The notes under the pieces are model-generated. The model saw only the letters and a list, made by a program, of their open reading frames with translations. It was not told the DNA's origin and did no database searches. 15,583 bases of DNA from an uncultured Methylobacter sp. (GTDB taxonomy: Bacteria; Pseudomonadota; Gammaproteobacteria; Methylococcales; Methylomonadaceae). The DNA lies in assembly GCA_903831545.1 (NCBI GenBank), contig CAIKYI010000522.1:1-15583 (forward strand), given 5' to 3'. The position numbers were made by a program, and so were the translations under genes. Position 1 is the first letter of the stretch. Each line of letters starts with the position of its first letter. This document shows positions 79 to 13,513 of the stretch, one piece after another.

Positions 79-1374
79 TTGGATTTGGTTGATCAATTGC
101 ATTACTGTAGTGATTATTTGGGTGCGCTTGAGGTTTGCAAACAGGCGGTGCAGCTAAATCCGGCTCTTGTTCGCGGCTTTCAGTTACTTGCTTTAAGTCA
201 TTCGCGACTGAATCAAAAAAAACCTGCCTTGGCCGCCGGGCGAAAGGCTTTGAGTTTGGCTCCGAACAGCGCCGTGCTTACCATTTTACTGGCAACGCTG
301 GAAGCTGCCGACGGTCTTGCAGAAGAGGCTAAACATCGCTTGCAAAAAGTTCTGACTTATTCATTAATGACCCTTGAAGAACAATTCAGGGCGCATAAAG
401 AATTGGCGCGCATTCTCGATAAACTTGGCGAGTATGATCAAGTATTTAGCCATTTGCACAAATCAGCTGAACTGTCACTCCGGTTACCGGAAGTAATGCG
501 TCAGGATTTGAATTTGGTTCCGCAGATGCTGAAAACCAATAAAGCAGAGTTCGACCATGAGTTACTCGCGCGTTGGGCGGGCACCGAGTTTCCGGCAGAA
601 CAACCTGCGCCGGTATTTTTGTTAGGCTTTATGCGCACAGGTACAACCTTGACCCAGGAAGTAATGGGCGCACACCCCAGGGTTTTTGTCGCTGATGAAA
701 CCGATTTGATTGTGTCTGTAGTTCAGGAATTAAATAAGATCTCGCATTACCGGGGCAGCGTGCCTGAGCAACTTAGGTCGCTGGATTTGGCTGGCGTGCT
801 TTATTTGCGCGATTTCTACTGGAACAGAGCAAGAGCGCTATTTGGCGACAAAATCGGACAGCGCCTGCTGCTGGATAAAACGACAATGAATAGCATTGAT
901 CTGGGTTTGATCAATTGTCTGTTTCCTGATGCCAAGCTGGTATTTTTAGTACGAGATCCACGCGACGTCTGCCTGAGTTGTATGATGCAAACCATGATTC
1001 CTACGCCATCAACAATACATTTACTAAGCTGGCAAGGCACTGCAAAGTTTTATGCCCAGGTCATGGATTGGTGGATGACTATTAAACCCCAATTGACACT
1101 TGATTTTGTCGAGTTTCGCTATGAAGATGCCGTGTTTGAATTTGAGCCTGCTTTTCGTAAAGTCTTTGCCTTGCTGGATTTGGAGTGGGTGCCTGAGGTT
1201 GCCGATTTCCATACAAAAGTTGCAGGCAAATACATCGCCAGTCCCAGTTTTAACCAGGTAGCGCAACCGCTGTATTCTTCATCAGTTGGACGCTGGCGAG
1301 CCTATGAAAAGGAATATGCCCAAATTTCAACTTACCTGCAACCCTATATTGCTGCTTATGGGTATGAGGTCTAA
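79..1374 (+). CDS. TPR-containing sulfotransferase (Sulfotransfer_3-like), probably 5'-disrupted
   Basis: This is a predicted PAPS-dependent sulfotransferase with TPR-like helices at its N-terminus (about residues 5-135). The 5'-phosphosulfate loop is visible at 182-190 (LGFMRTGTT). The 3'-phosphate motif is at 291-301 (VRDPRDVCLSC). The family moves sulfate from PAPS to a protein, glycan or lipid; the acceptor cannot be read from the sequence. It is a clear paralog of the next sulfotransferase (1595-3241), sharing FxxGFxRxGTTLTxxVxGAHP, the RDPRD block and the tail QPxYSSxVxRWxxYEKxxxxI. The start is doubtful: position 79 is a TTG with no Shine-Dalgarno sequence, the first in-frame ATG comes only at about codon 97, and an in-frame TAG at 55-57 interrupts sequence homologous to the paralog. 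It may therefore be a pseudogene or a shortened product. Confidence 0.8.
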   Translation: MDLVDQLHYCSDYLGALEVCKQAVQLNPALVRGFQLLALSHSRLNQKKPALAAGRKALSLAPNSAVLTILLATLEAADGLAEEAKHRLQKVLTYSLMTLEEQFRAHKELARILDKLGEYDQVFSHLHKSAELSLRLPEVMRQDLNLVPQMLKTNKAEFDHELLARWAGTEFPAEQPAPVFLLGFMRTGTTLTQEVMGAHPRVFVADETDLIVSVVQELNKISHYRGSVPEQLRSLDLAGVLYLRDFYWNRARALFGDKIGQRLLLDKTTMNSIDLGLINCLFPDAKLVFLVRDPRDVCLSCMMQTMIPTPSTIHLLSWQGTAKFYAQVMDWWMTIKPQLTLDFVEFRYEDAVFEFEPAFRKVFALLDLEWVPEVADFHTKVAGKYIASPSFNQVAQPLYSSSVGRWRAYEKEYAQISTYLQPYIAAYGYEV

Positions 1375-1427: not shown

Positions 1428-1598
1428 ATGAAAAACTTAAATAAACCCGGGCTCTTTATGGTTCCTGTCTTAAAATGGGGCACGGTTACCTTTACGGATT
1501 ACAAAAGCAATATTGGCTACACCGATCTGCAAAACCTGTTGGGTAGTTCTTATAATCTGATTGAGGTAGATTGGACTGACCGTGGACAAAATACATGA
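1428..1598 (+). CDS. small hypothetical protein (56 aa) overlapping the downstream sulfotransferase start
   Basis: An ATG at 1428 opens a 56-codon frame rich in aromatic and beta-type residues (for example KWGTVTFTDY and LIEVDWTDRG). It ends with TGA at 1596-1598, overlapping the ATG of the sulfotransferase at 1595 as ATGA, a typical translational-coupling arrangement. No strong ribosome-binding site precedes 1428. The internal ATG at 1458, about seven bases after a GGG, could be the true start, giving 46 residues. I do not recognise the family. The compact overlap and non-random composition argue for a real gene; the alternative is a remnant of a longer protein. Confidence 0.5.
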   Translation: MKNLNKPGLFMVPVLKWGTVTFTDYKSNIGYTDLQNLLGSSYNLIEVDWTDRGQNT

Positions 1599-3241
1599 CC
1601 CAAACTGCTACCAACAAAATCCGCCGCAATGAGCCCTGCCCTTGCGGCAGCAGAAAAAAATATAAAACGTGCTGTGCCAACGCAACCGATCAACAGGGTA
1701 TTTCCCCTATTACCGACATTGCAACTTTGAATCAGTTTGCCCAGCAGGCTATTGCCAGCTCCGATTTTGTCCAGGCCGAGTCCTGGTTTAGAGAGTTACA
1801 TAAAGCCAAACCAGCCGATGCTTATTTTTTAGCCAGCCTTGGTCAGGCACTTTGTTGGCAAAGACGCCTTAAAGAAGGTATCGCTTATTTACTGCAAGCA
1901 GCAAAACTACTGGAACGGCAAGCCCTTAAAACCCGTGATCCCAGTTTGGCTCAGGAATTATCCGCCCAGTTGCTATATTGGGGAGAAGCAAAAGCCGCCG
2001 AGCGACTGGCTCGACTGGCGTTGACTTTGGCCCCTGAATCCCCATCTGCCTTGAATAATATGGTGCTGTGCCTTACCCGGGTTAACAATAATGCCGAGGC
2101 ACTGCCGCTGGCACAGCAGGTTTGCAAGTTGTTGCCAGACCATCCTGGCTGTCACGTTTTGCTGGCGTTGATTGAAGACAAGACCGGCCAAACCGACGCG
2201 GCTTTACAACGCTTACAGCAAGTCATTGCCCGCAACGTTGATGTCGAACAAACGGCACGGGCCAATCTGGAATTGGGGGTTATTCTCGACAAACAGGGCC
2301 GCTATGAGGAAGCTTTTACCGCTTTAACCACATCTGCAGCCAGCAATTATGCGGCATTGAAGCAACACCCCGCTGAACGTGAGTATTTGTTTGATACCCT
2401 GGCCCGCAGCAGCGAAAATTTTACCCGTCAACTTTTGCAACGCTGGTCTGTGGCTGAGTTAAGTAATGATGGCTTGCCGGTGCCGGCATTTTTGATGGGC
2501 TTTTTGCGGTCAGGTACTACCTTGACCGAACAAGTATTGGGTGCTCATCCGCAAATTATAGCCACTGACGAAAGCAGTATTGTTCATGAGTTAACCCAGG
2601 AGTTGCAAAAGCTTGGCGGTAATGATCACGCAACAGCTTTACAGTCGATAACAGTGCCAGAGATAAAGCTGCTGAGGCAGTTTTACTGGCGACGACTGCG
2701 TGAAGAATATGGTTCGCAAGTAATGCACAAACAGGTGGTTGACAAGAATGCGCTAAACACCATGGATGTGGGTGTCATCAGTGTGATTTTTCCGGAAGCC
2801 AAAATTTTGTTTGCCTTACGCGATCCACGCGATATTTGCGTCAGTTGTTTTATGCAGGCTTTTAGCCCAGCACCTGCGACGGTTAATTTACTGTCATGGG
2901 AAGGCATAGCCAGGCAATATGCGGCGGTGATGGGTTATTGGTTGCTGTTACGAGGTAATATTCAACCGGCTTATTTAGAATTGCGCTACGAAGATACGGT
3001 TGCTGATTTTGAAACCACTTATCGGCGGGTTTTTGAGTTTTTGGACTTGCCCTGGCATCCAGGTGTCGAGCAATTTCATGAGCGGACCAAAGGGCGTTAT
3101 ATTTCAACCCCCAGTTTTGCAGCCGTTTCGCAACCTGTTTACAGCAGCGCAGTGGCGCGTTGGAAACATTACGAAAAGCAGTTTGAGCCGATTATTTCAG
3201 AGTTGGAACCGTTTATTAAAGCCTTTAGTTATTCGGCATAA
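1595..3241 (+). CDS. SEC-C / TPR / sulfotransferase multidomain protein
   Basis: This 548-residue protein has three parts. The N-terminal SEC-C zinc motif is at 14-27 (PCPCGSRKKYKTCC, four cysteines). TPR-like helical pairs occupy about 45-250. The sulfotransferase domain covers about 295-548, with the PAPS loop MGFLRSGTT at 301-309 and the 3'-phosphate motif ALRDPRDICVSC at 407-418. The predicted reaction is sulfate transfer from PAPS; the acceptor is unknown, and TPR plus SEC-C suggest protein contact. The ATG at 1595 overlaps the stop of a 56-codon ORF, so the two are probably co-translated. No signal peptide is present, so it should act in the cytoplasm. It is a paralog of the preceding gene and keeps the region that the TAG disrupts there. 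A cysC gene about 9 kb away could provide PAPS. Confidence 0.9.
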   Translation: MTQTATNKIRRNEPCPCGSRKKYKTCCANATDQQGISPITDIATLNQFAQQAIASSDFVQAESWFRELHKAKPADAYFLASLGQALCWQRRLKEGIAYLLQAAKLLERQALKTRDPSLAQELSAQLLYWGEAKAAERLARLALTLAPESPSALNNMVLCLTRVNNNAEALPLAQQVCKLLPDHPGCHVLLALIEDKTGQTDAALQRLQQVIARNVDVEQTARANLELGVILDKQGRYEEAFTALTTSAASNYAALKQHPAEREYLFDTLARSSENFTRQLLQRWSVAELSNDGLPVPAFLMGFLRSGTTLTEQVLGAHPQIIATDESSIVHELTQELQKLGGNDHATALQSITVPEIKLLRQFYWRRLREEYGSQVMHKQVVDKNALNTMDVGVISVIFPEAKILFALRDPRDICVSCFMQAFSPAPATVNLLSWEGIARQYAAVMGYWLLLRGNIQPAYLELRYEDTVADFETTYRRVFEFLDLPWHPGVEQFHERTKGRYISTPSFAAVSQPVYSSAVARWKHYEKQFEPIISELEPFIKAFSYSA

Positions 3242-3389: not shown

Positions 3390-3812
3390 TTAATACGTCA
3401 TTTGAAAACCATGCTGGGTATCTGATAAATGCTCGCTAAGATCGTGATTCTCTTGATCGAACTTTATACCATATTGATAAGGTAAGGTATTTGTTCGATA
3501 AGCGATACTGGCCGGCATCTTAAACGTTATATTTGAATAAAACCTGATATTTAATATAATTTTCTGGCGAGTGGAAATATCATGGCTGCTGCTAAAGGAC
3601 AAGCCATTGCGATTAATGTCGTTTAAGATTACAAAATCAATGAACTGCTCTTTACCGTAGCTAAGGGGAGTAATCTCGCAAAGTGCTACGGAAATATCGG
3701 CTCTTACATAACGAGTGATCAGGCGTTCATTTTTAATTGGTGTAAATAATTGATTTTCATCATATAATTCTTGGTTTATGTTATGATTTAGTGATACTTG
3801 AATGTTAGGCAC
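3390..3812 (-). CDS. PilZ-domain protein, putative c-di-GMP receptor
   Basis: This 140-residue protein matches the PilZ layout. An arginine-rich RxxxR element lies at 30-37 (RLITRYVR), followed by beta strands and a second element at 65-70 (DINRNG). The latter fits (D/N)xSxxG except that Asn replaces Ser. A closing strand runs YQYGIKFDQ at 112-120. In characterised PilZ proteins these two elements hold a c-di-GMP dimer; the Ser-to-Asn change may alter affinity. The GTG start is supported by AAGGA about seven bases upstream on the minus strand. There is no signal peptide, so the protein is cytoplasmic. It lies about 2 kb from GEMM-like leaders that may sense the same nucleotide. It is convergent with the sulfotransferase and downstream of a 12-bp-arm hairpin. 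Confidence 0.75.
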   Translation of the reverse strand: MPNIQVSLNHNINQELYDENQLFTPIKNERLITRYVRADISVALCEITPLSYGKEQFIDFVILNDINRNGLSFSSSHDISTRQKIILNIRFYSNITFKMPASIAYRTNTLPYQYGIKFDQENHDLSEHLSDTQHGFQMTY

Positions 3813-4711: not shown

Positions 4712-5704
4712 TTAAGCGACTTTTTTGTTGCGACACAAACCCATAAAGCCGGCGATGGCAGAACCGAATAACCAGACTGCGCCAGGGACGGGGACGGGGG
4801 CAACGCCAGCTTGGCTAATATTTAATTGATAACCGTCAAGAGTAGCGCCCCAATTGCCATTTTTGTAGCCACCCAAGAATATTTGGTATATTTGGCCTGC
4901 ATTAGCGTTGAAACTGATGGTGTTCAGATTACTTGGGCTTGCACCACCGATACTATAAGCAACAATATTGGCAGTGCTAAGTCCTGTTCCGGCAAGTGCT
5001 GCAGCAACAGGAATGGGGTTGGAGTTACTGGTGATACCTCCAGTGTTATTGTTGGTATTCCAAGATCCATGATGGTTATAGCCTGTAGCAGCATCCATGC
5101 CGCTAAAAATGGTAAAGCCGAAATTGGTGCCTGTTTGTACTATACCTGAAGCGCTTAGTGTGACTAATCCAGTGGTGTCTGATTTGAATAAGCCAGTATC
5201 CAAATCATGTCGCCATCCTGCAGATGCTGTTTGCGATGCTAATGTTGCTCCTGAGTTGTCACTCCAAGCGCCTTTTGCTGTGTCGATGTCCGCATAGGTT
5301 CCATATCTATTAAAAGCATCAAAGGTAGAAATGGTACCGATGCCGCCAATACCGCCAGTGATATTAACACCCCAGTTCATATGGGCACCAATATAACCAA
5401 ATGGTGTAGCCGTAGCGCTACCGGTACCGGCCCATTTTTGACTAGCGATGTCTCCTACGGTACTGGAGGAGTTAGCATCGGCACCATTTGTCCACCCATC
5501 AGTTGCGCCGTAATAGTTGCTATTCCAGACTCCACCTAGGGTAGGGTCAATACTAGCACCGCTTATGTCAGTGCTATTACCGGTACTAAGGTTATACATA
5601 GTTGTTACAGCTGCCGAAGCGGTAGAAACAGAACCGGCTGTTAACGCCGCGCCTGCCAGTGCAAAAGCTACTGCTTTGGCTAATTTGGTTTTTGTTAAAG
5701 ACAT
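4712..5704 (-). CDS. VPLPA/PEP-CTERM-type exported protein (Trp/His-motif family, paralog 1)
   Basis: This 330-residue exported protein has a signal peptide (cut near ASA, about residue 31) and a C-terminal sorting signal. The sorting signal consists of APVPVPGAVWLFGS from 302, a short hydrophobic helix and a basic tail (RNKK). Such tails are recognised by exosortase-type systems, which place proteins at the cell surface or in exopolysaccharide. It is paralogous to the divergent gene at 6372-7286. The two share TKLAKAV at the start, a HxNW element (108-111), RYGT, GAWSDN (146-150), GWRH (163-166), HHGSWN (211-216) and a Trp near 285. The ATG has a good AAAGGA ribosome-binding site. A sigma-54 promoter and a GEMM-like leader precede it. 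Biochemical function is unknown; conserved Trp and His suggest ligand or metal binding, which is inference. Confidence 0.85.
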   Translation of the reverse strand: MSLTKTKLAKAVAFALAGAALTAGSVSTASAAVTTMYNLSTGNSTDISGASIDPTLGGVWNSNYYGATDGWTNGADANSSSTVGDIASQKWAGTGSATATPFGYIGAHMNWGVNITGGIGGIGTISTFDAFNRYGTYADIDTAKGAWSDNSGATLASQTASAGWRHDLDTGLFKSDTTGLVTLSASGIVQTGTNFGFTIFSGMDAATGYNHHGSWNTNNNTGGITSNSNPIPVAAALAGTGLSTANIVAYSIGGASPSNLNTISFNANAGQIYQIFLGGYKNGNWGATLDGYQLNISQAGVAPVPVPGAVWLFGSAIAGFMGLCRNKKVA

Positions 5705-5736
5705 TAAAAATTCCTTTAAATAATAATTAATGCTGG

Positions 5737-5815
5737 GGTGATGCGACCATCTCGGTGAGATCTCGTATTTTCCGTGCCCGCCTCACAACGGGGTTAGCTT
5801 TTTCCTAGCGGCTGT
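5737..5815 (-). promoter_or_regulatory. structured 5' leader, divergent GEMM/c-di-GMP-I-like riboswitch candidate
   Basis: Read on the minus strand, this leader has the same hairpin as the two copies at 6185-6270 and 7704-7788: CCCG, a short helix, a GTGA (GNRA) tetraloop, then GGCGGG and a CGGAAA element. The next helix (ATCTC with GAGAT) matches the others with a compensatory T-A to C-G change. It lacks the GCCACGG and GCCGGGTTGCC elements of the other copies, so it may be a decayed or altered-specificity version. The region lies about 32 bases upstream of the start codon and about 30 bases into the transcript predicted from the sigma-54 promoter. Confidence 0.45.
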
Positions 5816-5855
5816 TATGCAAAATTGGTAATTACTTGAATTACATTAAGATAAA

Positions 5856-5871
5856 AGCAATTTAGATGCCA
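5856..5871 (-). promoter_or_regulatory. sigma-54 (-24/-12) promoter of the 4712-5704 gene
   Basis: The minus strand reads TGGCATCTAAATTGCT, a match to TGGCA-N6-TTGCW with GG and GC exactly 12 positions apart. Transcription would start near 5845, giving a leader of about 140 bases that includes the structured element. Sigma-54 promoters need an AAA+ activator bound upstream. Confidence 0.75.
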
Positions 5872-6089
5872 ACACTCTGTGGGCATCAATTTAAAAAGGA
5901 TTTATGTTGATTTTGGGTATGAGCTTTTATATTGAGTGTGTGATATGACCTATTTTTTGGAATTATCAGGTTAAATAACATAGTTTTTTTATTTTTCCTG
6001 AAAATAATAAGCTAATTGATGCAGGTTTAATCGAAATATAATATTTATCCTATTGAATTAATTAATAATTATTTTTTATTTTTAAATTA
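5872..6089. promoter_or_regulatory. shared upstream activating region between divergent sigma-54 promoters
   Basis: About 218 very AT-rich bases separate the two outward-facing sigma-54 promoters. This is the expected place for enhancer-binding sites of one AAA+ activator serving both genes. A weak ACACTC/GAGTGT inverted pair (5872-5877 and about 5934-5939) is visible, but I cannot define a convincing operator. Confidence 0.35.
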
Positions 6090-6105
6090 TGGCATTAAAT
6101 TTGCT
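6090..6105 (+). promoter_or_regulatory. sigma-54 (-24/-12) promoter of the 6372-7286 gene
   Basis: The sequence TGGCATTAAATTTGCT carries the full -24 TGGCA and -12 TTGCT elements at correct spacing. It is nearly the same as the divergent promoter at 5856-5871. Transcription should begin near 6115, giving a leader of about 255 bases that contains the GEMM-like element. Confidence 0.78.
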
Positions 6106-6184
6106 TTATAGATTGCAGGCAGGTTTCAAACAGGCAGCCTCCTCGTTTGAGCTCAGGGATGAGTAACCCGCCATGGATTGTCGT

Positions 6185-6270
6185 AGAGTTCAACGCTCTT
6201 AAGCCACCCCCGTCGTGAGGCGGACTCGGAAAGCCACGGATCTTGTGTTTGACAAGATGGCCGGGTTGCC
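6185..6270 (+). promoter_or_regulatory. GEMM-I/c-di-GMP-I-like riboswitch candidate
   Basis: In order, this leader shows a small AGAG/CTCT hairpin, AAGCCACC, and a hairpin closed by CCG/CGG with a GTGA (GNRA) tetraloop. CGGAAAGCCACGG follows, then a helix ATCTTG/CAAGAT, and it ends GGCCGGGTTGCC. The order of GNRA hairpin, (C/G)AAAGCC, second helix and GCCGGGTTGCC matches the known c-di-GMP-I (GEMM-I) fold. The 5' strand differs from the usual CAGGGCAAACC, so the ligand is uncertain (c-di-GMP, a related dinucleotide or another). A T6 run at 6279-6284 could be part of an expression platform. It precedes a CTERM exported-protein gene by about 100 bases and is almost identical in its core to the copy at 7704-7788. 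Confidence 0.62.
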
Positions 6271-6371
6271 TTCTTCGTTTTTTGGCGTGGGAGGGCTCAG
6301 TGATTTACTGGTAACTTAAAGATTGTTATCAGCAGACGCTGAATGATTTTAAAAATAACGAGATATTAAGC

Positions 6372-7286
6372 ATGAACAAAACAAAATTAGCCAAAGCAGT
6401 TTCCATGATAATTGCGGGGGCCGCGCTGACTGCGGGAGCTTCTAGTGCTTTTGCTTCCACTACTATGTACAACACTTTTACAACGGCTGCAGCTAGTGAT
6501 ACTGATGGCTGGACGCGTACCTATGATAGCACTGGCGCAACCGCAGGTACCGGTCCTGCAAGTCAGGGTAACAAAGGCACTATTGTGCCTTGGCTGGGCA
6601 CTTCAGGTGGAGCTTTACCACTTAACTATACCGGCTCATCACATTTGAACTGGGCGGTACAATTGGGCAGCACAGGGGACTCGGCCACTATTTCTGCAGC
6701 TGATTCTTTGTCGCGTTACGGCACGGCTGCCGAAATCGACACCGGCGGTGGAGCCTGGAATGACAACGGCTTAAATGCATCCGGTGTTGCTACTGCAACG
6801 GGTCCTACCGGTTGGAAACATCAAACCGATATCGGTATTATTCAATCAGATGTTGCTCAATACATTACTTTAAATCTTTCAACTATAAGTAATACCTTCA
6901 GTCGTTTTGGTGTGACAGTATTTGATGGCGTTGACACCAATACCGGAAATTATAGTCATCATGGTGCTTGGAATGCTCCAGGCGCAGCAACACCCGCACT
7001 ATTTACAAAAAACAACCCATTTGGAACAACCGGACTTACCAATATTGGTTATTCTGATAATGTTGATGCTGTTAATGGTTATAGCTTTTTGGCTGAAGCC
7101 GGTAAACAGTATTCAATTTATTTGGGTGGTGTAGGTTTTTCCAGATGGAATACCGGTGTTGATGGTTACGCTTTAAATATTTCAACTTCTGCTACTGCCC
7201 CCGTCCCTGTTCCAGGTGCAGTCTGGTTGTTCGGTTCTGCCATGGCGGGTTTTGCTGGCATGCGTCGCCGTAAATTAGCGGCATAA
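6372..7286 (+). CDS. VPLPA/PEP-CTERM-type exported protein (Trp/His-motif family, paralog 2)
   Basis: The 304-residue protein has a signal peptide (cut near AFA, residue 28). It ends with APVPVPGAVWLFGS (276-289), a hydrophobic helix and RRRK, the layout of exosortase-sorted proteins. Shared family motifs are HLNW (91-94), RYGT (115-118), GAWNDN (127-132), GWKH (147-150), HHGAWN (196-201), LGG and a Trp at 259, and DGYxLNIS near the end. It has no cysteine. A full sigma-54 promoter, a GEMM-like leader and a clear terminator make it a single-gene unit. The ribosome-binding site is weak. The role is unknown; the paralog at 4712-5704 faces the other way with a mirrored control region, indicating duplication by inversion or strong selection for co-regulation. 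Confidence 0.85.
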   Translation: MNKTKLAKAVSMIIAGAALTAGASSAFASTTMYNTFTTAAASDTDGWTRTYDSTGATAGTGPASQGNKGTIVPWLGTSGGALPLNYTGSSHLNWAVQLGSTGDSATISAADSLSRYGTAAEIDTGGGAWNDNGLNASGVATATGPTGWKHQTDIGIIQSDVAQYITLNLSTISNTFSRFGVTVFDGVDTNTGNYSHHGAWNAPGAATPALFTKNNPFGTTGLTNIGYSDNVDAVNGYSFLAEAGKQYSIYLGGVGFSRWNTGVDGYALNISTSATAPVPVPGAVWLFGSAMAGFAGMRRRKLAA

Positions 7287-7358: not shown

Positions 7359-7703
7359 GTTTGGGGGATTTGATAGTTTTGCCGGCAATCATAGAGGGTA
7401 AAACAACTTACTTATCCTGCACTTTATCGTTACGATCTGTTGCCTGGATAGCGATAAAACTCCTGGGGATAAAGAATTAAGGCATTTAACCTGTTTTAAG
7501 TTAAATAACACTGTTATTTTAATAAAATTAAAAAACAAAACCCGCGCCAAGAATAATTTTTAAATAAATATAGTTAAAAAATTCATAATCATTTTTTTAC
7601 TTAATAGCTGATGCTACGCACCGACTACGAACTATCAATAACTTACGTCTATTTTTTGCTTTGTAAGTTGTTGATTTTTGGTTTGCCCGCCAAGGAATAA
7701 TTT
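7359..7703 (+). other. intergenic region, promoter of third CTERM gene expected
   Basis: These 345 bases hold no convincing open frame. They become very AT-rich toward the right and must contain the promoter for the leader at 7704-7788. A scan for GG and GC spaced 12 apart found no sigma-54 site here, in contrast to the two other family members. Confidence 0.5.
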
Positions 7704-7788
7704 AGAGTCAAGTACTCTTAGCCACCCCCGACGCGAGGCGGGTTCGGAAAGCCACGGATCTTGTGGGTATCAAGATAGCCGGGTTGCC
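7704..7788 (+). promoter_or_regulatory. GEMM-I/c-di-GMP-I-like riboswitch candidate (second close copy)
   Basis: This copy is almost the same as the one at 6185-6270. It has an AGAGT/ACTCT hairpin, TTAGCCACC, a CCCG/CGGG stem with a GCGA (GNRA) tetraloop, then CGGAAAGCCACGG. A helix ATCTTG/CAAGAT and a final GCCGGGTTGCC complete it. Substitutions relative to the first copy fall mostly in loops or keep pairing (loop GTGA to GCGA), which supports a conserved RNA. The element ends about 110 bases before the ATG at 7899. Confidence 0.62.
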
Positions 7789-7898
7789 GCCTCCCTGCAT
7801 TGTAAAAAGAGAGATACTCCAGTGACCTAAAAAATGAATCAATAACCCATTTTACAGATCTTGCTGATTAATAAACTTAAATTTAAACAAAAAATACG

Positions 7899-8912
7899 AT
7901 GAACATGATGAGAACTAACAACACTAATAAAGTAAATAAAGCACTGCATAAAGCAATTATTGCCGCATTAAGCGCGTCAGCAACCCTGGTTTATTCAGGT
8001 CAGGCTGCGGCGATCAGTCCATCCACAATACCTACTTTGAGTGCAGGTGTTGTGGATACGGTAACGGGAAATGCGCCTAAACGGGCGTGGTCTGATTATG
8101 GTACCAATAACAATTATGGTTGGACTCATACCGCGCAATTTAGGATTTTTCAGGTAGGAAGTGATACTGATCTACTTGCCGGCACTCGCTTTGATGTGAA
8201 TGTTGATCTTAAAGGTAATGGTACAGTTGGTTCGGTTACACCGATGACGTCTCCCGCTTTTACGATCTGGACTAGTGGAACAACACCTCTGGTTACTGGT
8301 GCTGCAAATGGCTCTGGCTATGGACATTCCTGGAGTCAGGTGCGTGGTGGCTTTGGTGATGGTGGTGTTGCCGATGATCCTTGTGGTTTGGGTGGCAATT
8401 GTGCGTTGGGCAGTAATGGTTGGTTGGGAACCGGCGGTGGCGGCAATATTCTTGACGGCCATGCTGGCTGGATTGGTTATGCCAATGCGGGATTTTCTTT
8501 TGTTAATGGCGATGGCGATTTAATACAGGGATTAACAGCGGGTGTAACCAATCCCACCAATATCGGTCAATACGGTGGTGGTGCCAGCGACCCCTTAAAT
8601 GGTACCGCAATTACCAATGTAAACGGCTCTTCGGCTTATGTAAATGGCGGTTCGGCAACTTTAAGTGCTGGAGAGGCAATCTTGAACTTGGCGGGACTTA
8701 AGGCCGGTTATTACCTGATCGGTTATGCAGGAGCTTGTGCTGATAATAATGCTAATGGGCAGGCCTGTGCTACAGCAGGAGCTCGTACTTACAATCTGAC
8801 CATCAGTAACGCAGGTGTCAGTTCCGTGCCTTTACCGGGCGCTATTTGGTTGTTTGGTTCGGCTTTGGCTGGTTTTACGACATTGGGTCGCAGGAAATTA
8901 GCTAAGGTTTAA
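7899..8912 (+). CDS. VPLPA/PEP-CTERM-type exported protein (distant Trp/His-motif paralog 3)
   Basis: The 337-residue protein has a long basic start and a signal peptide (cut near QAAA, residue 38). The ending is SVPLPGAIWLFGS (309-321), a hydrophobic helix and RRK. It shares with paralogs 1 and 2 the pattern AWSDYG (63-68), GWTH (74-77), a C-terminal beta segment ending YNLTIS, and the leader RNA. It differs by having two cysteine pairs (C162/C168, C280/C290) and Gly-rich loops. Three ATGs lie close together (7899, 7905, 7908) and none has a strong ribosome-binding site. It is followed after 196 bases by the large di-heme peroxidase on the same strand. The pairing recalls methanotroph CorA-CorB or MopE-SACCP, but I see no direct sequence match to CorA or MopE. 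Confidence 0.82.
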   Translation: MNMMRTNNTNKVNKALHKAIIAALSASATLVYSGQAAAISPSTIPTLSAGVVDTVTGNAPKRAWSDYGTNNNYGWTHTAQFRIFQVGSDTDLLAGTRFDVNVDLKGNGTVGSVTPMTSPAFTIWTSGTTPLVTGAANGSGYGHSWSQVRGGFGDGGVADDPCGLGGNCALGSNGWLGTGGGGNILDGHAGWIGYANAGFSFVNGDGDLIQGLTAGVTNPTNIGQYGGGASDPLNGTAITNVNGSSAYVNGGSATLSAGEAILNLAGLKAGYYLIGYAGACADNNANGQACATAGARTYNLTISNAGVSSVPLPGAIWLFGSALAGFTTLGRRKLAKV

Positions 8913-12647: not shown

Positions 12648-13262
12648 CTAGGCATCGACAATTGGCAAGAAAAAACCACGTGTTCGCAAAACATCAATTA
12701 TCTTTTCCACACACTCATCTAAAGACCACTGTCCGGTGTTTAGGATCAATTCTGGATTAATAGGCTCCTCGTAAGGGGATGAAATGCCGGTAAAATTTGC
12801 AATCTTGCCTTGTCTTGCTTGTTCATATAAACCTTTGACGTCGCGATTTTCACAAACAGTAATATCGCAACGACAGAAAATCTCGATGAAATCTTCGGGA
12901 TTAACCAAGTTTCTCGCAAATTGCCTTTCTGCACGAAAAGGCGAAATAAACGCGGCCAGGGTTATTACTCCGGCTTCCAACATTAACTTTGAAATTTCGG
13001 CGATTCGGCGAATGTTTTCCTTTCTGTCTTGATCGCTAAACCCCAAATCCTGGCATAAACCATGACGAATATTGTCTCCGTCAAGGACAAATGTTCGAAG
13101 GCCTAAGTGATGTAAGCGTTCTTCAACAGCATGAGCCAGTGTAGATTTCCCCGACCCAGATAATCCAGTAAACCATAACATGACAGATTTGTGGCGGTTA
13201 AGTTGTTCTCGCTGTTGGCGTTTTATTAAAGAATTTTCCCAGTAAATATTTGTTTTAGACAT
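12648..13262 (-). CDS. cysC: adenylyl-sulfate (APS) kinase
   Basis: This enzyme phosphorylates APS at the 3' position with ATP to give PAPS. Residue numbers here count from the TTG at 13268; the ATG at 13262 (third codon) is the better start and gives 204 residues. Key motifs are the P-loop GLSGSGKST (35-43), DGDNIRHGL (63-71), DLGFSDQDRKENIRR (74-88), FISPFRAER (107-115) with the phosphate-accepting Ser109, and DVKGLYEQARQGKI (143-156). Length is close to E. coli CysC (201 residues). No CysDN is adjacent. In this window the obvious consumers of PAPS are the two sulfotransferases at 1-3241; otherwise it could serve cysteine synthesis. The gene stands alone and converges with the CTERM cluster. 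Confidence 0.95.
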   Translation of the reverse strand: MSKTNIYWENSLIKRQQREQLNRHKSVMLWFTGLSGSGKSTLAHAVEERLHHLGLRTFVLDGDNIRHGLCQDLGFSDQDRKENIRRIAEISKLMLEAGVITLAAFISPFRAERQFARNLVNPEDFIEIFCRCDITVCENRDVKGLYEQARQGKIANFTGISSPYEEPINPELILNTGQWSLDECVEKIIDVLRTRGFFLPIVDA

Positions 13263-13513
13263 AGTCAATGAAGCTAATAACTGATGAGTAATAAGTGACA
13301 GTTGCCCTTAGAACAATCGAGAGTGATACCGAAAAGTACTAACGTGCAAATTAAAATATTAGACGGAATAAATATTGTACCATTCACTATGGTTGTTACC
13401 ATTCATGCATTCACCCAGCGTTGTATCTGCCCAAGACCGAGATATCAGCAAACATTTCCAAACTACGCGCTCAAATATTAACTCAGAATAAAGCTTCAAT
13501 CGTTACATAACTA

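Follow-up and report, generated by a model that had tools for sequence, protein, structure and literature searches.

A putative mirrored control block of sigma-54-type promoters and cyclic di-GMP riboswitch leaders between two divergent surface-protein genes of a Methylobacter genome

The divergent locus

The stretch of DNA analysed here (the window) comprises the 15,583 nucleotides (nt) of contig CAIKYI010000522.1 of an uncultured Methylobacter sp. (assembly GCA_903831545.1), a 3.64 Mb draft genome that is 72.7% complete, and carries a divergent pair of genes for exported proteins of the exosortase-sorted kind. The open reading frame on the minus strand (4712–5704) encodes a 330-amino acid protein with a C-terminal PEP-CTERM-type sorting tail, which in a profile search scored 17.0 bits with TIGR02595 (PEP_CTERM) at a cut-off of 16, and that on the plus strand (6372–7286) a 304-amino acid protein with a VPLPA-CTERM-like tail, just under the cut-off of TIGR03370 (24.3 against 25.35 bits). 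The two proteins are 42% identical, so that an earlier reading of this DNA from its letters alone (the sequence-only reading) was correct in placing paralogous exported proteins behind two leader RNAs, with tails that lie at or near the profile cut-offs. The genome also encodes RpoN (487.7 bits, cut-off 277.35), an EpsH exosortase (239.9 bits, cut-off 25.7) and CsrA. The region between the genes, with its outward-facing sigma-54-type (-24/-12) sites and its leaders related to the c-di-GMP-I (GEMM-I) riboswitch for cyclic diguanosine monophosphate (c-di-GMP), is the subject of this report. The reading favoured here, at a probability of roughly three in four, is that it serves as a mirrored control block for a pair of paralogous surface proteins sorted by exosortase, in which initiation by sigma-54 is followed by c-di-GMP-sensing leaders; the earlier observation is right, and was understated.

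Promoter sites in the window

Two -24/-12 sites face outward, TGGCATCTAAATTGCT on the minus strand (5871–5856) and TGGCATTAAATTTGCT on the plus strand (6090–6105), as had been described, with scores of 15.5 and 15.1 against a maximum of 20.1 in a weight matrix that was written from the general sigma-54 consensus. Both contain the GG of the -24 element and the GC of the -12 element at the fixed spacing; they had been called full-consensus and are in fact near-consensus, each with one mismatch to TGGCAC-N5-TTGCW. Transcription would be expected to start at about 5845 (minus) and 6116 (plus). Sites with one mismatch are expected by chance 0.93 times per window, and at least two were present in 45 of 200 shuffles. 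The consensus alone is not beyond chance, and the reality of the window sites therefore rests on their relatives, described below. Between the promoters is a dyad, AAATAACATAGTTTTTT (5973–5989), one mismatch from AAATAAC-N3-GTTATTT, the centre of which is 110 and 109 base pairs (bp) from the two -24 elements and which is a candidate for a shared activator site.

Leader RNAs

On the plus strand, the region between the expected start and the aptamer (6116–6192) is a structured 5′ leader with a GGA-loop hairpin, CTCAGGGATGAG, at 6152–6163, and is followed by a c-di-GMP-I aptamer (6193–6273) that scores 44.6 bits with RF01051, above the gathering score of 35. This aptamer is of the type termed C15 here, with the internal loop ACC/CTC, and scores 81.9 bits with R1, an aptamer-only covariance model of which it is itself one of the 25 building sequences. 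An Rfam scan of the window returned no family for the structured domain at 6116–6192; CTCAGG..GAG and CAGGGA elements are shared by the corresponding domain of several C15 leaders, that of the window included. In the predicted fold, the remaining stretch up to the start codon (6274–6371), the putative expression platform, is able to pair with strands of the aptamer. A strong intrinsic terminator was rejected as the platform, as only one weak terminator-like hairpin is present (6329–6342); terminator-like sites in 5650–6450 number 2 against 0.8 +/- 0.9 in shuffles.

The minus-strand leader (5733–5807) is a diverged GEMM-I-like RNA with a GNRA hairpin, P1, P1a and altered P2/P3 pairings, which scores 29.2 bits with RF03167. 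The proposal that both genes have GEMM-like leaders with a shared GNRA hairpin is thus upheld for the plus leader, which exceeds the Rfam cut-off, and in part for the minus leader, which has the same kind of hairpin and is diverged and sub-threshold. A copy of it elsewhere in the genome (contig C482, below) differs at few positions, and the differences keep the pairing of P1 (C-G to U-A), P1a (C-G to U-G) and P3 (U-G to C-G), with one A-C mismatch in P2, in pairs drawn by hand from these two sequences only. This suggests an RNA that has been kept in altered form rather than debris, and the minus leader is best regarded as a diverged relative of the aptamer with a less certain function. Among 237 genomes of the family, long DNA matches to it were confined to itself and the C482 copy (178 nt), the other nine listed matches being 32–35 nt long and mostly in the hairpin region.

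Copies of the block

A second divergent promoter-leader block is present on contig C482 of this genome. It is 81% identical over 697 nt, includes the two promoters, the two leaders and a perfect dyad, and has a different gene behind the plus leader. Its copy of the minus site is TGGCACTTAATTTGCT (score 17.4); the copy of the plus site, TGGTATTAAATTTGCC, is weaker (8.8) and lies the same 87 nt from its aptamer. The gene behind this C482 plus-leader copy (L010; C482 near 1086–1225, minus strand) has no ATG near the expected start and its listed frame opens at TTG, whereas a similar gene of Methylobacter psychrophilus (L236:6528–7529, by eye) starts further upstream with an ATG.

In M. psychrophilus Z-0021 (L234) a divergent pair is also preceded by two aptamers and two -24/-12 sites (14.0 and 14.5), and next to it are relatives of the window's 151-amino acid protein (56%) and of its TPR-sulfotransferase (79%). 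One product of this pair (L234:1243–2229) is 50% identical to the minus-strand protein of the window and 39% to the plus-strand protein, and its gene sits behind a full aptamer (72.5 bits), so that in this species the nearest counterpart of the minus-strand gene is equipped with a full aptamer. The closest relative of the plus-strand protein (L236:4989–5903, 81% identical) is encoded elsewhere on the contig of the pair, likewise behind a C15 aptamer and a site scoring 12.3.

The window contains a further Rfam-grade c-di-GMP-I aptamer, its third riboswitch (RF01051; 7711–7791, plus strand), of C15 type with the loop ACC/TTC, 5′ of a gene for a VPLPA-CTERM-like protein (7899–8912, plus strand; TIGR03370 22.1 bits, cut-off 25.35) that is weakly similar to the flocculation protein PepA (NF033554, 26.7 bits, under the cut-off of 80). 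Upstream of this riboswitch is a perfect copy of the dyad (7503–7519), one of three in the genome, and no -24/-12 site, unlike its paralog on C162 (a 79% identical stretch), which has a weak site (9.5) 101 bp from the dyad. The promoter of the third riboswitch looks to have decayed or been lost, or to have been replaced by another.

Family-wide association of C15 aptamers with sigma-54 sites

c-di-GMP-I aptamers were detected in 125 of the 237 family genomes at E <=0.001; the genome of the window has 16 RF01051 matches at E <=10, 10 of them above the cut-off. A first set comprised 94 aptamers from the first 61 genomes and two weaker ones from the window's genome (L014 and L015); L002, with only 33 nt upstream, was left out, and L016 (18.1 bits), judged a false match, had been excluded before counting. 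In this set a site scoring at least 11 within 250 nt preceded 0 of 43 aptamers with an AAA/GRY loop and 21 of the 52 others, against 3.4% of 884 control windows. Both the cut-off of 11 and the division into C15 and AAA types were chosen after these scores were known, yet the first set is retained in the pooled test below; a second set was therefore drawn from 35 further genomes, none among the first 61, by searching with R1 and proceeding down its ranking, with the site threshold unchanged. Here 32 of 65 C15 aptamers had a site, as did 0 of 3 AAA aptamers and the single other one, compared with 2.7% of 662 control windows. These counts omit L143, which was already part of a set of 26 further top-scoring loci (L147 is counted in both), and include a locus of lower rank, G084:C66:17061 (14.5), without which the C15 figure is 31 of 64. 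The low rate for AAA aptamers was repeated in those 26 loci (AAA 1 of 25, L146; C15 0 of 1, L148). When both sets were clustered by similarity of their leaders (164 loci, 122 clusters), sites were present in 32 of 64 C15 clusters, 1 of 44 AAA clusters (L091) and 5 of 14 others (C15 against AAA, Fisher p 2e-8). The sequence-only reading had suggested looking in related genomes for a -24/-12 site upstream of this leader, and half of the C15 clusters have a site scoring at least 11 within 250 nt.

It might be argued that the -24/-12 matches are no more than chance resemblances to the consensus in A+T-rich sequence, since a pair of one-mismatch sites such as that in the window is not unusual. This is hardly credible in view of the controls for strand, spacing and replication: among C15 loci with 250 nt of upstream sequence, 47 of 92 have a site in the sense orientation and 1 of 92 in the antisense orientation, and lengthening the spacer by 1 to 5 nt reduces the 47 to 3, 2, 2, 4 and 1. 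A chance origin was rejected, being contradicted by the strand and spacing controls, and such dependence on orientation and spacing is the mark of real -24/-12 elements. Sigma-54-type promoters that directly feed GEMM-I leaders are therefore real and recur across the family, as the second set, the clustering and these controls attest.

Within the family, genomes with a C15 aptamer and a site belong to 10 genera; one further genus comes from another family of the same order (G057). A search with an exact combined pattern (site, 80–110 nt, C15 aptamer core) in one genome per species, 84,980 species in all, returned 12 stretches, a count that is too low because the pattern fixes the spacing. Ten of them hold an aptamer and come from eight genomes titled Methylococcaceae, Methylobacter or Methylomicrobium, all methanotrophs (Methylobacter belongs to the Methylococcales); the other two, from an Opitutia metagenome-assembled genome (L235) and from Rheinheimera (L244), hold none and were taken as chance matches. 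R1 itself found matches in 8 of 398 genomes of the phylum, that of the window included.

A second alternative accepts the sites and holds that riboswitch and promoter are unrelated neighbours, C15 aptamers hitch-hiking uncoupled in leader cassettes that are copied as a whole. In the original survey (Haft et al., 2006; PMC1569441), 99 of 167 proteobacterial PEP-CTERM genes have an upstream sigma-54 site, so that such sites are common at genes of this kind. On contig C606 of the window's genome, dyads and a strong site (15.8) lie before a gene with a PEP-CTERM-like tail, and the stretch from that site to the ATG contains no RF01051 match. The promoter-leader block has, moreover, been duplicated with a different gene behind its plus leader. 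Among leaders that precede genes with a PEP-CTERM tail, however, 41 of 79 C15 leaders have a site and 0 of 16 AAA leaders do, where the tail was called by a simple pattern and left unassigned for 6 C15 leaders and for 24 AAA leaders, the reading frame of the latter extending beyond the available sequence. The link also survives leader clustering and spans the eleven genera mentioned above, and as the aptamer lies downstream of the site, both devices must act on one transcript if both work. An uncoupled arrangement is accordingly considered improbable. Because the promoter-leader arrangement recurs across the family, stacked two-input control is the natural reading.

The C15 aptamer subtype

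What distinguishes the C15 type from the usual aptamer is the internal loop adjoining the GNRA hairpin, in which positions 15 and 34 covary. When position 15 is C it always faces C or U at position 34 (92 of 92 loci), and when it is A it faces A, G or U (46, 16 and 5 loci), three of the 164 loci not having been parsed. With the RF01051 riboswitch the C15 type shares the aptamer fold, the GNRA hairpin and conserved ligand-contact positions; it differs from the usual form, which has A with A or G, in this loop and in its tie to sigma-54 promoters. The plus leader and the C15 type score under the gathering scores of the GGC and UAU variants in Rfam. The fold is borne out by both-sided changes in 14 of 21 pairs.

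That C15 aptamers, or the diverged minus leader, sense a ligand other than c-di-GMP is quite unlikely. The 15/34 loop is changed throughout, the A-rich stretch before G20 has mostly been lost (AAA at positions 8–10 is retained in 3 of 64 C15 clusters), and the bulge in P2/P3 of the minus leader is displaced, all of which would be compatible with altered recognition. The nucleotides that we take to contact c-di-GMP (G20, A47 and C92) are, in contrast, kept in the plus aptamer and nearly all C15 clusters, the G20 equivalent in 64 of 64 and the C92 equivalent in 63 of 64, and A38 is invariant in 25 of 25 aligned rows. Variants that recognize cyclic guanosine-adenosine monophosphate carry A20. With the G20 and C92 equivalents and A38 kept, c-di-GMP is the expected ligand of the C15 type.

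The dyad and a candidate activator

All three perfect dyads in the 3.64 Mb genome lie upstream of C15 riboswitches, and the 17-base dyad is located 100–102 bp upstream of a -24/-12-like site in five leaders of this genome; the sites of three score well (L007 15.1, L015 15.5, L014 17.4) and those of two are under the cut-off of 11 (L005 9.5, L010 8.8). Three further one-mismatch dyads (C98, C437 and C720) have no convincing -24/-12 site near them, the best scoring 9.9. Among site-bearing clusters of the family that have the dyad core AAC-N3-GTT, 11 of 13 have it at 104–140 bp from the -24 element and in steps of about ten bp (104–109, 119, 129 and 140), as would be predicted for a protein that contacts a single helical face; several of these, however, come from one genus and are not independent. 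As a general repeat the dyad was discarded on the counts for mismatched copies given below; only its perfect copies are informative.

The dyads of the C606 gene are situated 89 bp (outer) and about 55 bp (inner, by eye) before its site. Both are inside one long inverted repeat (C606, L032, about 1280–1335), and 20 identical bases are common to this region and the window (5970–5989).

An enhancer-binding protein would most likely bind the central dyad and from there activate the sigma-54 form of RNA polymerase at the two outward promoters. The sequence-only reading had cited the PrsK-PrsR system, reported to exert sigma-54 control of PEP-CTERM genes. PrsR (TIGR02915) is above the cut-off in 41 of 101 sampled genomes of the family, and the dyad of the window is unlike the published motif. 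In the parts of the source consulted, the PrsK-PrsR regulon resembles the present arrangement in that single PEP-CTERM genes follow long intergenic regions that contain a sigma-54 site and an upstream activator-site candidate, and differs in that no riboswitch is described there (PMC1569441). The PrsR-linked motif 1 given there, which ends in TTTACA, is separated from the sigma-54 site by 62.8 nt on average, with a range of 32–92 (PMC1569441). As activator site of the window it was rejected: no TTTACA is seen by eye between the dyad and either promoter, and the dyad is 100–102 bp from the -24 element. In the family TTTACA occurs in 1 of 39 cases, and TGTAAA, its reverse complement, is more frequent than in controls (7 of 39 against 38 of 1087). 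The 28 genomes with a non-canonical aptamer and a site include 13 of the 41 PrsR-positive genomes and one, the window's own, of the 20 listed PrsR-negative genomes (Fisher p 0.024 on these 61 genomes); the other 14 are outside the 61, and 40 further negatives are unlisted. PrsR is absent above the cut-off here and the association covers 61 genomes only, and it is therefore a possible activator, a candidate rather than a finding.

A possible CsrA input

In the 100 nt before the 64 C15 aptamers the motif CANGGA gives a count of 28, compared with 5.3 +/- 2.3 in shuffled sequences (at most 11 in 50 shuffles) and with 2 on the complementary strand; before the 44 AAA aptamers the count is 4, compared with 4.2 in shuffles. 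The hairpin CTCAGGGATGAG of the plus leader resembles the CsrA consensus, and csrA is present in the genome. CsrA/RsmA may thus bind GGA-loop hairpins in the leader, in which case sigma-54, CsrA and c-di-GMP would be integrated. Clustering does not fully remove shared descent of the leaders, however; the shorter AGGGA is slightly enriched before AAA aptamers as well (10 against 4.8 +/- 2.2), and the minus leader has no CANGGA-type motif. CsrA involvement is doubtful on this balance and is offered as a lead.

Stacked control and its counter-evidence

In the proposed mechanism, transcripts initiated at the mirrored promoters would carry GEMM-I-type leaders that sense c-di-GMP and so set the amount of surface protein. 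Binding of the activator and of c-di-GMP would together be expected to give an AND-like outcome, and high c-di-GMP may raise rather than lower expression. What the sequence itself shows is the promoters, by their orientation, spacing and recurrence, the plus aptamer, the paralogs, the duplicated block and the link of the C15 subtype to sigma-54 throughout the family.

Several observations weigh against this reading, in addition to the chance frequency of the window sites and the post hoc threshold mentioned above. The minus leader lies under the Rfam cut-offs, with 29.2 against 59 bits for RF03167 (E 3.2e-4 in 2.5 kb) and 21.3 bits for RF01051. At the threshold, half of the C15 clusters lack a site, near-sites scoring 8–11 in 16 of 92 C15 loci were excluded from the counts, and the second set alone contains only 3 AAA aptamers. 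Exceptions run in both directions, as the AAA leaders L146 (15.5) and L091 (12.0) have sites and the C15 leader L148 has none. In the genome of the window, one of six C15 aptamers (L007) reaches the threshold, three have weak sites of 8.8–9.5 and two have none; these include the third riboswitch (7711–7791), before which the best score is 1.3. Two C15 aptamers outside the order (L224 and L231) also have no -24/-12 site, and the link is therefore claimed only for the methanotroph family and one relative (G057). The dyad core is present in only 13 of 52 site-bearing clusters (score at least 8), against 39 of 928 control windows (4.2%) that were not matched for A+T content, and dyads with up to two mismatches are hardly commoner than a reversed control (66 against 53). 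Finally, PrsR was not found above the cut-off in the 72.7%-complete genome (best 377.9 against 502.6 bits).

Relation to known systems

As far as the accessible text of the reports extends, the nearest known arrangement is that of pgcA in Geobacter sulfurreducens, which belongs to a phylum other than that of the methanotroph family. There a GEMM RNA motif is found downstream of predicted IHF sites (PMC7962754), and IHF often assists sigma-54 promoters; no sigma-54 site is named in the portion consulted (PMC7962754), and the gene is a cytochrome gene (PMC5732950). For pepA of Aquincola tertiaricarbonis, a PEP-CTERM gene, a mapped start, a -24/-12 site and rpoN1-dependent transcription have been reported, in an article the main text of which does not mention c-di-GMP and the consulted parts of which describe no riboswitch (PMC9850573). 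In Methylophaga nitratireducenticrescens GP59, which is not a methanotroph of this family, four tabled c-di-GMP riboswitches adjoin PEP-CTERM/VPLPA-CTERM genes, and no promoter type is described in the parts consulted (PMC12530212). The two devices are known separately, sigma-54 at PEP-CTERM genes since 2006 and c-di-GMP riboswitches beside such genes since 2025. Against the PrsK-PrsR regulon, the present arrangement is set apart by the position of its dyad core and by a PrsR that is not above the cut-off in its genome.

That the pairing of promoter and leader is little described agrees with a search of open-licence full text, subscription literature lying outside its scope, in which no report of a stacked sigma-54 promoter and c-di-GMP riboswitch was found among the papers listed. 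Such stacking is likewise unreported in the accessible parts of work on Geobacter (PMC3495685, PMC2725144, PMC2996986, PMC10599522), a riboswitch review (PMC7266159), a sigma-54 survey (PMC3162934) and a Methylosinus transcript map (PMC12403871).

Neighbouring genes

The surface-protein genes are flanked by two sulfotransferase-like TPR-type proteins and an adenylylsulfate kinase (79–1374, 1595–3241 (+) and 12648–13268 (-)). The first TPR protein matches Pfam Sulfotransfer_3 and both match NF052394 weakly; these enzymes may serve the sulfation of surface proteins or of a polymer. Near the riboswitches, a 140-amino acid protein (3390–3812, minus strand) that matches PilZ weakly (20.5 bits, under the cut-off of 22.5) is a possible candidate for a c-di-GMP-binding protein.

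Implications for methanotrophs

A broader proposal, advanced tentatively, is that the C15 subtype, distinguished by its covarying pair of pyrimidines in the loop, co-evolved with sigma-54 promoters in methanotrophs, as part of a multi-input control by activator, CsrA and c-di-GMP in which mirrored promoters share one activator site. The mirrored block itself would join two signalling routes that are usually separate, sigma-54 activators and c-di-GMP sensing by RNA, on single surface-protein transcripts of methane consumers. That an internal loop of an aptamer correlates with the type of promoter is unexpected and can be tested, and it predicts that the tuning of the aptamer (its affinity, its speed or its protein partners) varies with the mode of transcription initiation. 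If the coupling is functional, methanotrophs could limit the production of costly surface proteins to conditions in which an activator signal and the messenger of attached life are both present.

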